From Luteitalea sp. TBR-22 (GTDB lineage Bacteria > Acidobacteriota > Vicinamibacteria > Vicinamibacterales > Vicinamibacteraceae), in the NCBI RefSeq assembly GCF_016865485.1, contig NZ_AP024452.1, forward strand, positions 434,001-498,000: DNA of 64,000 bases, written 5' to 3'. The notes beneath the pieces were generated by a model that was not told where the DNA came from, searched no databases, and saw only the letters and a list, made by a program, of their open reading frames with translations. Below are positions 10,349 to 36,403 of the stretch, one piece after another (the stretch's first letter is position 1; each line of letters starts with the position of its first letter). The translations under genes and the position numbers were made by a program.

Positions 10349-10471
10349 AATTTGAAATTGGAAATTGGAAATTGTTGGGCCCGCGGCTTCGCCGTCGGGC
10401 CTCGGGCTGCCCCGAGCGAGCGAAGGTCGAAGACCAAGCCGCCCGGAATTTCAAATTTCAAATTTCAAATT
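10349..10471. repeat. R1 element, copy A (GAAATTT arms)
   Basis: A 123-bp element: a left arm of GAAATTG/T heptamers (10349-10373), a GC-rich core that includes GCGGCTTCGCCG, and a right arm of TTTCAAA heptamers (10447-10471). The arms are reverse complements, so transcripts can fold into one long hairpin. The right arm ends 14 bp from the stop of the gamma-glutamyltransferase gene. Related copies lie at 17443, 33815 and 35303; the core here is the most diverged. Confidence 0.88.
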
Positions 10472-15933: not shown

Positions 15934-17444
15934 AGCGACACGCCCTCCTGGCAGTTCCCGTCCTCGCGGCGCTCGCGGTCCTCGCGACCTCCGGGCTCGA
16001 CGCACGCCTGCTGGCCGGCGCCACAGGTCGCCTCGACTCCCGACGCCCGACTCCCGACTCCCGTGAACAGGCCCGCGATTCCCGACTCCCGACTCCCGAC
16101 TCCCGTCCCAACCTGATCGTCATCGTCACCGACGACCAGGCGGAGTGGACGCTGAACTCCTACGGGAACGCCGACGCGCGAACGCCGCAGATCGACAGGC
16201 TGGCCAGGGACGGCGTGCGGTTCACCAACGTCTTCACGCCGTCACCGGTGTGCTCGCCCAGCCGCGCCACCCTGCTCTCCGGGCGCTACGGCACCGAGGT
16301 CGGCATCACCGACTGGATCAATCCCGAGGAGAACGCGGCGGGTGTCGGCCTGCCGCCCGAGACCACCACGTGGGCCGAGGCGCTGCAGCGCGCCGGCTAC
16401 CGCACGGGGCTCATCGGCAAGTGGCATCTCGGGTCGCTGCCGCAGTTCCATCCGACGCGGCACGGGTACGGGTACTTCTTCGGGTTCCTCGGTGGTGGCA
16501 ACGAGCCGATGAACCCGCGTTTCGAACGCGACGGCGAGGTGAAGGCCGCTACCGGGCCGGAGCCCGACGTCGTCACCGACGATGTGCTGCGCTTCCTGGC
16601 AGCGGACCCGGGCCGGCCCTTCGCGCTGTCGGTGCACTACCGGGCGCCGCACACGCCGTACGGCCCGGTTCCCGAGCAGGACATGGCGCCGTTCCGCGAC
16701 GCGAACGTGGCCATCCCGGTGTTCCCGGGGCTCGACCAGGCACAGGTGCGTCAGTGGACGCGCGAGTACTACGCGAGCGTGCATTCGATCGACCGCAACA
16801 TCGGGCGGCTCCTCGACGCGCTCGCCGCGTCGGGCCTCGACCGCACCACGCACGTGATCTTCACGAGCGATCACGGCTACAACATCGGGCACCACGGGCT
16901 GCACACCAAGGGCAACGGCACGTGGATCGTCGGCGGCGTCAACGGCCCGACGATGCCGAACATGTTCGACACGTCGCTCAAGCCGCCGTTCCTGGTGCGC
17001 GGCCCCGGCATCGGCGGCGGGCGGGTGGTCGACGCGCTGGTGGCGTTCGAGGATCTGTACCCGACGCTGCTGGCGCTGGCCGGCGTGCCGATGCCGGCCG
17101 ACGCGCCTCGCCACGGCCGCGACATCTCGCCGTTCCTGCGGGGCGAGGCCGTGCCGCAGTGGCGCGACACCGTGTACGGGCAGTACGACATCCACCACTA
17201 CGCGATTGCGCACCTGCGCATGATCCGCGAGACGGGCTGGAAGCTGGTGCGGTCGTACGGCACCACCACGAAGGACCAGCTGTTCGACCTGAAGGCCGAT
17301 CCGGGCGAGCGGAAGAACCTGTGGAACGCGCCGGAGCAGCGCGAGCGGCGCCGCGCCATGGAGGCGCGGCTACGGGAGTGGATGCGGTCGATCGACGACC
17401 CGCTGCTGAAGGAGACGGGGCTGCTGTTCAAGCCCGCCCCGTAA
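15930..17444 (+). CDS. Exported arylsulfatase-family hydrolase with repeat-derived N-terminal insert
   Basis: 504 residues. The type I sulfatase signature CSPSR (residues 108-112) carries the Cys that a maturase converts to formylglycine; metal ligands lie in VTDDQ and TSDHGYNIGHHG. A signal peptide covers residues 1 to about 25. Residues ~36-60, between the signal and the catalytic domain, are encoded by GACTCCC heptamers (repeat R3) and read as low-complexity Asp-Ser-Arg-Pro-Thr-Pro. Without this insert the protein would start like a normal periplasmic sulfatase. The substrate (a sulfated polysaccharide or aryl ester) is unknown. The TAA stop is formed by the first bases of repeat R1 copy B. 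Confidence 0.92.
   Translation: MKRHALLAVPVLAALAVLATSGLDARLLAGATGRLDSRRPTPDSREQARDSRLPTPDSRPNLIVIVTDDQAEWTLNSYGNADARTPQIDRLARDGVRFTNVFTPSPVCSPSRATLLSGRYGTEVGITDWINPEENAAGVGLPPETTTWAEALQRAGYRTGLIGKWHLGSLPQFHPTRHGYGYFFGFLGGGNEPMNPRFERDGEVKAATGPEPDVVTDDVLRFLAADPGRPFALSVHYRAPHTPYGPVPEQDMAPFRDANVAIPVFPGLDQAQVRQWTREYYASVHSIDRNIGRLLDALAASGLDRTTHVIFTSDHGYNIGHHGLHTKGNGTWIVGGVNGPTMPNMFDTSLKPPFLVRGPGIGGGRVVDALVAFEDLYPTLLALAGVPMPADAPRHGRDISPFLRGEAVPQWRDTVYGQYDIHHYAIAHLRMIRETGWKLVRSYGTTTKDQLFDLKADPGERKNLWNAPEQRERRRAMEARLREWMRSIDDPLLKETGLLFKPAP
16035..16104. repeat. R3 heptamer repeat GACTCCC, copy 2, inside the sulfatase gene
   Basis: Two blocks of four 7-bp units each (16035-16062 and 16077-16104), mostly exact GACTCCC, are separated by 14 bp. 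Because 7 is not a multiple of 3, the array reads as a 21-nt/7-residue period (DSRLPTP). The sulfatase frame stays open through it. Confidence 0.92.
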
Positions 17445-17564
17445 TTTGAAATTGGAAATTTGAAGTTCGCGGGGGCGCGGCTTCGCCGCCGCCCCTCGGG
17501 ATGTGTCGAGCGGCAAGGCCGAGAGGCCGGCCGCCGATCAATATCAAATTTCCAATTTCGAATT
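17443..17564. repeat. R1 element, copy B
   Basis: This 122-bp element lies exactly between two convergent genes: it begins inside the sulfatase TAA stop and ends 1 bp before the oligopeptidase stop. Left arm GAAATTT units 17443-17467, right arm 17540-17564. The core has GCGGCTTCGCCG and a conserved CGGCAAGGCC...GGCCGGCCGCCGATCA segment also found in copies C and D. Position and shape would suit a bidirectional transcription terminator. Confidence 0.9.
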
Positions 17565-33087: not shown

Positions 33088-33816
33088 ATGGAACGCCAGT
33101 ATCACCAGTGGTTCTCGCCCCGCCTCGGGTTCGACATGGGGCTCACCGTGTACGGCCACTTCGGCACGCCGCTGCTCGCCTTCCCGACGAGCGGCGGCGA
33201 CGAGTGGGAGATGGAGGGGCAGCGCATGATCAGCACCCTCACCCCGTACATCAACGCCGGGCGCATCAAGGTGTTCTGCGTGCGGTCGGCCTCGGCGCAG
33301 TCCTTCTACGACAAGGGCGCGCACCCGTTCCACCGCAGCTGGATGCAGAAGCAGTACGACGAGTACATCCGCTGGGAGGTCGTGCCGTTCATCCACGACC
33401 ACTGCCGCGGACTGCCCGCCATTGCCGTCATGGGCGCCTCGCTCGGCGCCTACCACGCCGCCAACAGCGCCTTCAAGCACCCCGACACCTTCAAGTGGTG
33501 CTTCGCCATGTCGGGCGTCTACGACATGCGGCGCTTCATGGACGGCCTGTACGACGACAACTTCTACTTCAACAACCCGATCGACTATCTCTCGTCGATC
33601 ACCGACCCCTGGTTCTACCAGCACATCGCCTCGTCGCACGTCCACCTGGCCACCGGCAACGGCCCGTGGGAGCGACCGGAGGAGACCTACCGCTTCGCCG
33701 AGGTGTTGCGCAACCGCAACATCCCGCACCACCTCGACGACTGGGGACCGCAGGGCGGCCACGACTGGCCCTACTGGCACCACATGATGTGGGAGTACGT
33801 GGGCAGACTCCTGTAA
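33088..33816 (+). CDS. Esterase-family alpha/beta hydrolase
   Basis: 242 residues. The nucleophile elbow is GASLG (in AVMGASLGAYHAANSA), the acid is probably Asp in the DDWG segment and the base His lies in QGGHDWPYW near the C-terminus. Sequences such as LLAFPTSGGDEWE, WMQKQYDEYI and DDNFYFNNPIDYL identify the esterase-D/PHB-esterase-like (PF00756) group. It lacks a signal peptide, so it is cytoplasmic. It converges on two ATP-grasp genes and is separated from them only by R1 copy C, whose first bases supply its TAA stop. The cassette suggests it cleaves an ester or a product-side group of the ligase pathway; this is inference. Confidence 0.88.
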   Translation: MERQYHQWFSPRLGFDMGLTVYGHFGTPLLAFPTSGGDEWEMEGQRMISTLTPYINAGRIKVFCVRSASAQSFYDKGAHPFHRSWMQKQYDEYIRWEVVPFIHDHCRGLPAIAVMGASLGAYHAANSAFKHPDTFKWCFAMSGVYDMRRFMDGLYDDNFYFNNPIDYLSSITDPWFYQHIASSHVHLATGNGPWERPEETYRFAEVLRNRNIPHHLDDWGPQGGHDWPYWHHMMWEYVGRLL

Positions 33817-33937
33817 TTCGAAATTTGAAATTCGAAATTCTCGTGGGGCGCGGCTTCGCCGGCGCCCCACGGGATGTGTCAAGCGGCAAGGCCGGGGGGC
33901 CGGCCGCCGATCAATTTCAAATTTCAAATTTCAAATT
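33815..33937. repeat. R1 element, copy C
   Basis: A 123-bp element between the convergent esterase and permuted ATP-grasp genes: left arm 33815-33839, right arm 33913-33937, GC core with GCGGCTTCGCCG, AAGCGGCAAGGCC and GGCCGGCCGCCGATCA. Copies B and C are very similar. The left arm begins inside the esterase TAA stop and the right arm ends 4 bp before the stop of the minus-strand gene. Confidence 0.9.
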
Positions 33938-33941
33938 GCGT

Positions 33942-35300
33942 TCAGGGGCGCGGAGCGACCCTGAACGCCGGCACCTGCCCGCCGCCGCTCGTGACGTTGG
34001 CCAGGCCCGACGAACTGAGACGCGTGAGGAAGCCGCTCACCTTGCCCCGGAAGATGTAGGGCGCGCAGTCCACCAGCATGTCGCGCGTCGTCACGCGGTA
34101 CGGGTCGGTTTCCACCATCGGGAACGGCTCGCGACGAATCGGGATCCGCTCCTGCACGATCCAGGTGCCGGCCGGCTGCGCCAGCGCGTGCTGCAGCGCC
34201 GCCTCCCACGCCGATGCGTCGGCCTCCCACCCCAGCATGACGCCGTGCCCGCCGAAGTCGTCGGTCGGCTTGATCACCAGCCGCTCGCGGTGGTCACGCG
34301 CGAACGCCACCAGGTCGACGTCCTCGCCGCCGCTCGTCCGCGTGCGCCGCTCGGCGACGACGCGCGTCCACGGCACATGGGCCAGGATGACGGCCTGCTC
34401 CTCGGGAGTGAAGCGACCGGCGTGGGCCTCGTCGGTCAGGACCGCGAAGAACGACTTCTTGTGCGGGATCTTGCAGCGCAGCGTGTTGGCCACGCACGCC
34501 AGCCGCTCGCGGTAGGCCTGCACCAGCACGCGCGTGTCGTCGGGGCGCGCCACGAGATCGTTGATCAGGGCCCGCCGGTACACGAGGTCGATCGCCCGCC
34601 CGTGCGCCACGAGCCGCCCGCCGACGATCTCGAGGTCGCGCGGATCGGCGACCACCGTCGGCACGCCGCGCGCCGTGAAGCGCTCCGCCAGGATCTCGAA
34701 CTCGCTCCACGTCGGCACGTCGCGGAAGTCCGTGATTACGATCGTCGGAGGCGTCGCGGTGCCGCCCCAGTCGCGGTAGCTCGCCAGCAGCGCCTCGAGC
34801 ATCGCGTCCATCATGTGGTACGGCTCCGCGTCGAAGGCTTCGCGGAAGCGCGCCATGATCGGCAGTTCGGCGAACACCGACGCCAGCACCTCGGTGTAGC
34901 CGAAGCCGGCCGGCGACTCGGCGTTGTACTCGGCGAACATCAACGAGTCGGGCAGCAGGAAGGAATCGAGCCGACTGGCAGTGCTCGCGTACTGGTAGCC
35001 GGGGTCGATCGCGACGAGCGCGCGCTCGGCATCCGACAGCCCGAAGTCGGCCAGCAGCGCCTCGTCCTCCGTCGCCTCGCGGATGATCCGCTCGCCGACC
35101 CGCGCAATCACCTCACAGGCGGCGCGCTGGCGCGCCTCGTCCTCGACCGTCATGAAGAGCGGCCGCAGGAAGGGGCAGCTCAGGCGCCCGCCGAATACGA
35201 GCCGCGCGTCGCGCATCCGCTGCGCGTGCGCGACCCAGTACGCCTCGGTGAGCTCGCCGCCCTCGCCGAGGAGGGACATCCAGGTGTCGATCGGATTCAT
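33942..35300 (-). CDS. Circularly permuted ATP-grasp ligase-like protein
   Basis: 452 residues. The N-terminal half has AEYNAESPAGFGY, typical of the pre-ATP-grasp part of glutathionylspermidine-synthase-like proteins. The ATP-grasp core lies in the C-terminal half: LVIKPTDDFGGHGVMLGW (phosphate-binding Gly-rich loop after the ATP Lys), GTWIVQERIPI and FRGKVSGFLTRLSSSGLANV (metal and product loops). Such enzymes form amide bonds using ATP. It is the downstream partner of a RimK-like ATP-grasp gene. ATG 35300 begins 3 bp after the left edge of R1 copy D, so its leader is AT-rich repeat without a Shine-Dalgarno sequence. The product is unknown. Confidence 0.82.
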   Translation of the reverse strand: MNPIDTWMSLLGEGGELTEAYWVAHAQRMRDARLVFGGRLSCPFLRPLFMTVEDEARQRAACEVIARVGERIIREATEDEALLADFGLSDAERALVAIDPGYQYASTASRLDSFLLPDSLMFAEYNAESPAGFGYTEVLASVFAELPIMARFREAFDAEPYHMMDAMLEALLASYRDWGGTATPPTIVITDFRDVPTWSEFEILAERFTARGVPTVVADPRDLEIVGGRLVAHGRAIDLVYRRALINDLVARPDDTRVLVQAYRERLACVANTLRCKIPHKKSFFAVLTDEAHAGRFTPEEQAVILAHVPWTRVVAERRTRTSGGEDVDLVAFARDHRERLVIKPTDDFGGHGVMLGWEADASAWEAALQHALAQPAGTWIVQERIPIRREPFPMVETDPYRVTTRDMLVDCAPYIFRGKVSGFLTRLSSSGLANVTSGGGQVPAFRVAPRP

Positions 35301-35302
35301 GC

Positions 35303-35431
35303 AATTCGAAATTTGAAATTTGAAATTTGAAATTTGCGGGGGCGCGGCTTCGCCGTCGCCCCTCGGGCTGTTGCACGCGGCAAGGCCGACAGGCCGGCCG
35401 CCGATCAATTTCGAATTTCCAATTTCAAATT
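35303..35431. repeat. R1 element, copy D
   Basis: A 129-bp element between two co-directional ATP-grasp genes: left arm of four GAAATTT units (35303-35334), right arm 35407-35431. One edge is 3 bp from the start codon of the downstream gene, the other 6 bp from the stop of the upstream gene, so the operon's intergenic region consists almost entirely of the repeat. Confidence 0.9.
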
Positions 35432-35437
35432 GCCCGC

Positions 35438-36403
35438 TCAGGGTACCGGGCTGCCCACGAACCCCGACGCGGCGCCGAGGCCGAGCATCTGCTCCCACTT
35501 CGGGAACATGTTGCTCTGGTGCCCGTTGAGCGCGCGATCGATGCAGAGGCGGGCCATCTTGTCGACGACCATCTCGAAGTAGAACGGCGTGATCCGATCG
35601 CGCTCGAAGTCGGGCGCCGGGTTCAGGAAGTCGATCGCGTACGGTACGTCGTCCTGGATGCCGAACTCGATGGTGTTCATCTCGTAGCCGAGCGCCTCGT
35701 TGATCGTCTGCGCGTCCCTGACGACGCGCGCGCCGACCTCGGCCGAGAGGTAGTCGTGCTGGATCAGGTACTGGCGGGCGTGCGGGTCGTAGACCACCGG
35801 CACGATGTCGTGCTTGCCGAACGTGAAGCAGCGCACGTACTTGTCGAAGTGGACGAACTGCTGCAGCGTCATGCAGTACGGCGCGGTGCCGTCGTAGGCC
35901 GCGAGCAGCTCCTCGCGCGTGTGCACCTTGTACACGTGCTTCCAGCCACCGCCCGAGAAGGGCTTCAGGATGGCCGGGCGGCCCGTGTAGTCGAGCAGGC
36001 CGTCCCAGTCGAGCGGATACCCCATGTTGCGCAACGACGCGGGCTGGATGTCGACGTCCTGCGGGTACGCCTTCTGCGGGAGCAGCACGGTGCGTGGGAT
36101 CGCCACCCCCAGGCGGGCCATCAACGAGTAGTTGAAGAACTTGTCGTCGGCCGTCCACCAGAAGGGGTTGTTGATCACGTAGGTGCCGTTGAGCACCGCC
36201 AGCTTGAGGAAGCCGCGGTAGTACTCCACCTCGTGCGAGATGCGGTCGACGATCACCTTGTAACGCTGCGGCTCGTCCATCGGCGTGCCACTGAGCGTCA
36301 CGTACTCCGCGGTGATGCCGTGGGGCTGCCCGAGCTGATTCACCTTGTCGATGAACGCCGGAGGAAAGCTGTACTCGCGACCGACCAGCAACCCGATCTT
36401 CAT
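35438..36403 (-). CDS. RimK-like ATP-grasp ligase
   Basis: This 321-residue protein has a canonical ATP-grasp order: N-terminal domain with VGREYSFPPAFIDKV, ATP-binding Lys in RPAILKPFSGGGWKHVYKV, hinge LQQFVHFDKYVRCF, and the C-terminal metal ligands in IEFGIQDDVPYAIDFLNPAPDF. The family ligates a carboxylate to an amine or thiol nucleophile via an acylphosphate. ATG 36403 has GGGGAG ten bases upstream. It is the first gene of a two-gene minus-strand operon with the permuted ATP-grasp protein. Its upstream region is divergent from the ncRNA candidate at 36484. Confidence 0.86.
   Translation of the reverse strand: MKIGLLVGREYSFPPAFIDKVNQLGQPHGITAEYVTLSGTPMDEPQRYKVIVDRISHEVEYYRGFLKLAVLNGTYVINNPFWWTADDKFFNYSLMARLGVAIPRTVLLPQKAYPQDVDIQPASLRNMGYPLDWDGLLDYTGRPAILKPFSGGGWKHVYKVHTREELLAAYDGTAPYCMTLQQFVHFDKYVRCFTFGKHDIVPVVYDPHARQYLIQHDYLSAEVGARVVRDAQTINEALGYEMNTIEFGIQDDVPYAIDFLNPAPDFERDRITPFYFEMVVDKMARLCIDRALNGHQSNMFPKWEQMLGLGAASGFVGSPVP

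Follow-up and report, generated by a model that had tools for sequence, protein, structure and literature searches.

A candidate amide or small-peptide pathway built on two ATP-grasp ligases and an esterase in Luteitalea and other bacteria

Introduction

In the passages of PMC12568646 cited here, the fungal ligase Cp1B is a proven small-molecule amide ligase of the E-64 pathway, and the Escherichia coli enzymes YgiC and YjfC are cited as coupling peptides to polyamines. Here we analyse three genes in a stretch of 64,000 nucleotides from Luteitalea sp. TBR-22 (contig NZ_AP024452.1, positions 434,001 to 498,000; hereafter the window): EST, for a putative esterase, CPG, for a circularly permuted ATP-grasp ligase whose predicted fold is shared with YgiC, and RIMK, for a second, RimK-like ATP-grasp ligase. 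Uncharacterised operons linking ATP-grasp, permuted ATP-grasp and GCS2-type ligases with peptidases were reportedly predicted by Iyer, Abhiman, Burroughs and Aravind in 2009 (Mol BioSyst 5:1636).

We propose that EST, CPG and RIMK are probably the reduced cluster of a cytosolic pathway for a small-molecule amide or small peptide, independent of both the ribosome and nonribosomal peptide synthetases (NRPS). This is the best reading because the genes co-occur across genomes, the presumed ATP- and metal-binding residues of both ligases are invariant in the aligned rows and a search near 80 relatives found no conserved precursor peptide.

Results

EST (33088..33816, plus strand) is an intact open reading frame (ORF) for an alpha/beta-hydrolase of 242 aa, a putative esterase of family PF00756. 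On the minus strand, CPG (33942..35300) encodes a circularly permuted ATP-grasp ligase of 452 aa, counted from its ATG, and RIMK (35438..36403) a highly conserved ATP-grasp ligase of 321 aa with a predicted RimK/LysX fold. The ORFs and family profiles at these positions agree with the coordinates and domains given in an earlier note on this DNA, which had described two ATP-grasp genes on one strand facing an esterase. That facing is convergent: EST points at the 3′ end of CPG and thus, in the window, is transcribed apart from the ligases. The window genome is a single contig of 6.47 Mb. Of five genomes sampled from the genus, four (L002–L005) have the three genes next to one another; the fifth, a fragmented assembly (G003), gave no CPG match. 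Across the four, identity to the window was 97% for RIMK, 82–86% for CPG and 86–88% for EST, and the ratio of nonsynonymous to synonymous substitution rates (dN/dS), computed against three congeners, was 0.032–0.042, 0.173–0.192 and 0.185–0.245, respectively. All three are real genes under purifying selection, which is strongest on RIMK.

Co-occurrence was examined in 396 Acidobacteriota genomes, with search thresholds for CPG, EST and GCS2 fixed ahead of the searches. RIMK was counted in 129 genomes (134 minus five with fragment-level matches below 25 bits) and EST in 128; both were present in 122, RIMK only in 7 and EST only in 6. RIMK is thus nearly always accompanied by EST in this sample, and the co-occurrence on which the earlier note's proposal depended was borne out. 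Strong CPG matches, a set cut after the scores had been seen, occurred in 59 genomes, all 59 with RIMK and 56 with both RIMK and EST; ten more genomes had weak CPG matches (141–188 bits), none with RIMK, so that with weak matches included RIMK accompanies CPG in 59 of 69. RIMK and EST agreed in every one of the 24 genomes listed for both in families f1, f2, f5 and f10 (11 with both, 13 with neither), and the pair therefore seems to be gained and lost together. EST can sit on another contig than RIMK, as in G154 (RIMK on C1, EST on C2). A divergent RIMK subfamily of about 420 aa (104–135 bits, 21 genomes) had EST in 20 of its 21 genomes and adjoined it in five of seven loci read (L130–L134, not L140 or L141). 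The co-occurrence is far beyond chance, with the qualification that the genomes are related, so that Fisher p values overstate the evidence. The tightest unit is EST plus RIMK.

What kind of ligase is RIMK? It had no Pfam match at an E value of 0.1, and against TIGR00768 (rimK_fam) it scored 32.1 bits (E 7.3e-8), under the 143.4-bit cut-off for family membership. Its structural model (predicted local distance difference test score, pLDDT, 83.9; final 14 residues below 50) matched RimK best (5zct; Z 21.6, root-mean-square deviation, rmsd, 2.7 over 261 residues), then LysX/ArgX (Z 20.3–20.7; LysX 3vpd, 20.7), followed by PsnB, a graspetide ligase, and Ddl at Z about 19. Six residues (K88, K147, R191, E246, D258 and N261) were invariant in 19 aligned rows chosen among the 41 RIMK matches listed. 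The model places RIMK in the ATP-grasp superfamily, with a RimK/LysX fold and conserved presumed ATP- and metal-binding residues, and the protein may work as a RimK-fold ligase though it lies outside the TIGR00768 subfamily. An assignment to the R2K clade of ATP-grasp enzymes was rejected: only the RIMK relative of locus L087 matched PF18299, at E 0.085 and below the cut-off.

CPG was easier to place. Two Pfam families matched over their cut-offs, CP_ATPgrasp_2 (PF14403; E 7.8e-11, 42 bits against a gathering cut-off of 32) and CP_ATPgrasp_1 (E 2.3e-6), and profile matches were found to 3n6x (E 1.1e-8), YjfC (3.1e-4) and YgiC (1e-3). An AlphaFold2 model (pLDDT 93.2) was compared by VIA-align with YgiC (7uka; Z 30.1, rmsd 3.2, 357 residues), homoglutathione synthetase (3kal; Z 30.0, rmsd 3.7, 421 residues) and human glutathione synthetase (GS; 2hgs; Z 29.8, rmsd 3.8, 423 residues); the fold is also that of glutathionylspermidine synthetase, with Z of 28–30 over these synthetases and YgiC, and the fungal E-64 ligase Cp1B followed at 25.6. 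By its model, then, CPG has the fold shared by eukaryotic-type GS, glutathionylspermidine synthetase and YgiC. E124, N126, K282, K344, D347, G350, G351 and G353 were invariant in 27 rows (the window and 26 chosen from 40 CPG loci). The ATP and metal roles of the invariant residues in RIMK and CPG are presumed from the patterns of their families. Substitution of the ATP-grasp residues, a concern raised in the earlier note, was not found in the aligned rows of either ligase, where the presumed ATP- and metal-binding residues are invariant.

EST matched the Pfam family Esterase (PF00756) at E 6.4e-14, with 52.8 bits against a cut-off of 22, and had no obvious signal peptide. The best solved relatives of its profile were the esterases 5vol, 8z91 and 6vh9 and feruloyl esterases. 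In 26 aligned rows (the window and 25 chosen from 44 EST loci) S118, the nucleophile, D146, H225 and D226 were invariant. At the usual position of the triad acid, 20 of the 26 rows have Asp, and the window and five relatives carry G-x-(W/F)-E instead; the window protein, reading GNGPWE, lacks the Asp that follows the GxxD strand in a canonical triad, and from its sequence E195 may serve as the acid. The release role once given to EST is a guess. The label COG4947 probably applies to EST; the papers found under it look unrelated. Long open frames in G337 and G345 that might be read as an EST-RIMK fusion look like read-through of GC-rich frames.

In relatives the cluster is larger. We examined 80 named loci, the best 80 of 571 confirmed relatives; many of their contigs end near the cluster, and the counts are not frequencies. 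RIMK with at least one partner occurs, among these loci, also in Chloroflexi, Gemmatimonadetes, Planctomycetes, Armatimonadetes, Myxococcota and Obscuribacterales (the Planctomycetes being Gemmatales and Fimbriiglobus, and the Myxococcota Sorangium). The partners near RIMK were GCS2 (52 loci), EST (44), CPG (40), M29 (27) and X394 (14). At least one of the five was nearby in 64 of 80 loci, and in 38 of the 44 whose flanks were ample. Of these partners, GCS2 matched PRK13515 over its cut-off and is a carboxylate-amine ligase of YbdK type, and M29 is an aminopeptidase-family protein. The commonest full order was EST-RIMK-GCS2-M29-X394 (12 loci), followed by GCS2-RIMK-CPG-M29 with EST reversed (10) and EST-RIMK-CPG-GCS2 (8). 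A gene of the C26 (gamma-glutamyl-hydrolase) family follows GCS2 in six loci (Pfam-named for L070 alone), a second PF00756 esterase family, EST2, occurs in 12 (Pfam-named for one member), and in L113 (Ardenticatena) a class IV aminotransferase gene lies between EST and RIMK. G006 (L135), which belongs to the same family as the window genome, has GCS2-RIMK-CPG-M29 with EST reversed, followed by another ATP-grasp gene and EST2. The three genes are not the self-contained module supposed at first; relatives add GCS2, M29 and sometimes C26, EST2 or another ATP-grasp gene.

The window genome and three congeners had neither a GCS2 nor an M29 relative at E 1e-3; the same GCS2 query found matches of 55–60% identity in 7 of 12 genomes searched, and the same M29 query clear matches (69–70%) in 2 of 12, with distant, unlinked relatives in 2 more. 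Judged by these searches, the window genus appears to have a reduced cluster that retains RIMK, CPG and EST. A pattern scan of IMG/VR contigs gave 56 pattern matches with no relative confirmed, which leaves a virus-borne version unsupported.

Several further genes were seen around these loci. X394 (for example L087, 13147–14328) is conserved, 370–400 aa long and 3′ of M29 in 14 of 14 loci; two of three members scanned had matches to tubulin-tyrosine-ligase and ATP-grasp families, none over cut-off, and it is perhaps a divergent ATP-grasp or tubulin-tyrosine-ligase-like ligase. The extra ATP-grasp family that accompanies EST2 (L135, 9172–11203) matched ATP-grasp_4 and ATP-grasp_3 over cut-off and has homologues in the window genome at G000:C1:646786–647976 and 2871440–2872633 (63% and 54%), unlinked to EST-CPG-RIMK. 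Near the divergent RIMK subfamily lie a Peptidase S51-like protein (L132, 1939–6497, below cut-off; L141, 2456–5919, over it), a CPSase-type ATP-grasp (L134, 4567–7776) and, in L141, an enterochelin-esterase-like protein that matched EST2; this neighbourhood is possibly a sister pathway.

Does the cluster act on a peptide or on a carrier protein? Near the core genes of the 80 loci we collected 2844 ORFs of 20–110 aa (ATG, GTG or TTG starts) and found no conserved precursor or carrier among them: the widest small-ORF families reach six loci, and among the top 15 by spread, 13 run opposite longer conserved ORFs and 2 sit within longer ORFs on the same strand. The absence of a precursor peptide, first remarked for the window, thus holds in relatives, and a graspetide, that is a ribosomally synthesised and post-translationally modified peptide, was ruled against for want of a conserved precursor beside the ATP-grasp gene in these loci. 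Neither the window genome nor two congeners (G001 and G004) gave a LysW match, and a LysX-LysW carrier system was set aside for the window genome on that ground. Among 40 chosen RIMK genomes, 29 had a LysW match at E 1e-3, one of them over the cut-off, and none of the matches lay within 1 Mb of RIMK on its contig.

A repeat of about 120 bp stands on both sides of CPG in the window. It is AT-ended and GC-hearted; its AATTTCAAATTTC ends are inverted, and it has hairpins inside (DNA fold z −6.1). Its four copies in the window lie at 10349–10471, 17443–17564, 33815–33940 and 35303–35434, and the last two bracket CPG. At least 40 near-full-length copies occur genome-wide (40 of 173 candidates scored), and no copy turned up in short loci taken from three congeners. 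It looks like an element of the repetitive extragenic palindromic (REP) or miniature inverted-repeat transposable element (MITE) kind.

Discussion

How would such a pathway work? Each ligase would use ATP to activate a carboxylate to an acyl phosphate, which is then coupled to an amine. Where the cluster is complete, GCS2 would form the first bond, probably of gamma-glutamyl type, CPG, with its GS fold, would lengthen that di- or pseudopeptide by a second amino acid or an amine, and RIMK would add an amino acid or cap the product with one, as RimK and LysX do. EST, together with M29 and C26 where these are present, would cleave an ester or peptide bond in an intermediate or in the product during maturation or recycling; EST itself might strip an intermediate of an ester or serve to recycle the product. 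The pairing of GCS2 with a GS fold points to a gamma-glutamyl bond as the first one made by complete clusters, and C26 and M29 suggest a built-in hydrolysis of gamma-glutamyl-type bonds. In the window genus the pathway would run without the GCS2 and M29 steps and either use a precursor made elsewhere or yield a shorter product.

GCS2 is the glutamate-cysteine-ligase family and, given this and the fold of CPG, the logic of the pathway may resemble that of glutathione synthesis with other substrates. The earlier note's statement that no glutathione-like pathway fits was too strong, since the predicted fold of CPG is the one seen in the synthetases of glutathione, homoglutathione and glutathionylspermidine, and relatives carry GCS2. 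Its broader idea of an amide or peptide metabolite pathway stands as the best reading, for a module larger than it had described.

Several observations weigh against this reading. The fold of a ligase does not give its substrate, and RimK and LysX/ArgX, whose folds are closest to that of RIMK, act on proteins, with RpsF and LysW named in titles of Protein Data Bank entries. RIMK stands without any of the five partners nearby in 16 of the 80 best loci, 6 of them with ample flanks. In the Acidobacteriota sample, strong CPG is missing from 70 of 129 RIMK genomes and GCS2 from 31 of 129, so that GCS2, CPG and RIMK do not form a fixed chain; GCS2 in turn was found in 127 genomes, 98 with RIMK and 29 without.

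The ligases could instead glutamylate or peptidylate a polyamine or another amine, in the manner of YgiC/YjfC and PuuA, with EST, C26 or M29 setting it free; the cluster would then be catabolic or protective, not biosynthetic. CPG matches not only glutathione synthetases but also YgiC and glutathionylspermidine synthetase, and C26, the family of PuuD, follows GCS2 in six loci from Gemmatimonadetes. However, six is few among the 80 best loci and the esterase is left unexplained, and we consider amine conjugation or turnover unlikely.

Tagging of a protein or peptide terminus by RIMK, as RimK tags ribosomal protein S6, or by CPG, with EST and the peptidases reversing it, is likewise improbable. 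It would suit the pairs of ligase and peptidase, the very strong constraint on RIMK and the choice of RimK (Z 21.6) as best match of its model, and a LysW-like match, mostly below cut-off, exists somewhere in 29 of the 40 RIMK genomes. Yet no small conserved acceptor ORF was found near the 80 loci, LysW was unmatched in the window genome and two congeners and reached its cut-off in 1 of 40 genomes with none within 1 Mb of RIMK, RIMK scores under the RimK family cut-off, and an esterase and GCS2 suit a small molecule better.

We give still less weight to a low-molecular-weight thiol akin to glutathione that would take the place of bacillithiol; this reading is very unlikely. GCS2 and a GS fold follow the logic of glutathione synthesis, and the EST profile weakly matches S-formylglutathione hydrolase (7yvt, E 1.4e-4), but GCS2 was not detected in the window genus. 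In a test of 80 chosen genomes, BshC (PF10079) was found in 36 of 40 genomes with RIMK, one of them the window genome, and in 29 of 40 without it (8 of these 29 being fragment-level matches), and there is thus no replacement pattern. A chance neighbourhood of three housekeeping genes, to which the convergent EST of the window and its separate contig in some genomes might point, deserves almost no credence, as RIMK and EST co-occur even where their contigs differ (G154), adjacency recurs in several phyla and the divergent RIMK subfamily too adjoins EST in most loci read.

The small-molecule amide or peptide pathway might be taken one step further, to an undescribed amide metabolite, widespread in the cytosol of Acidobacteriota and other soil phyla and assembled by up to three mechanistically different ligases in series with attendant hydrolases; lineages such as the window genus would have a pruned version with two ligases, an esterase whose catalytic acid is altered and a lineage-specific product. 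This extension is tentative, and we would rather doubt than assert it. About a third of the sampled Acidobacteriota (129/396) and members of several other phyla carry RIMK. Should the product prove to be a common metabolite inside cells, then a small molecule widespread among soil bacteria has been overlooked, and the ligases could be tried as enzymes for amide synthesis. With the co-occurrence and an EST-RIMK pair as the minimal unit, the question is open to direct test.

How does the cluster compare with known systems? As in glutathione and homoglutathione synthesis, relatives pair a GCS2-family enzyme with a GS-fold ligase; CPG, however, is only 13–15% identical to GS structures, the cluster has an extra RimK-like ligase and an esterase, and the window genus has no detected GCS2. 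YgiC/YjfC, glutathionylspermidine synthetase and 3n6x (Mfla_0391) share the fold of CPG (Z 28–30). RimK, LysX and ArgX share that of RIMK (Z 20–21.6), which nevertheless differs from the RimK family by its score under the TIGR00768 cut-off, and the window genome, unlike a LysX system, has no LysW match. The E-64 pathway likewise yields an NRPS-independent amide metabolite through a GS-fold ligase (Z 25.6), but it is fungal and employs epoxysuccinate together with a distinct amide bond synthetase, and its passages cited here mention neither a RimK-like nor a GCS2 ligase (PMC12568646).

The combination EST-RIMK-CPG-GCS2-M29 was not recognised in the open-licence literature by title and abstract opening, which is no claim that it is absent from print. 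The enzyme folds are known, and, as far as could be checked, neither their combination nor its spread and product have been characterised. In general kind, the cluster belongs with the ligase-peptidase associations of the amidoligase neighbourhoods that Iyer et al. reportedly predicted in 2009.

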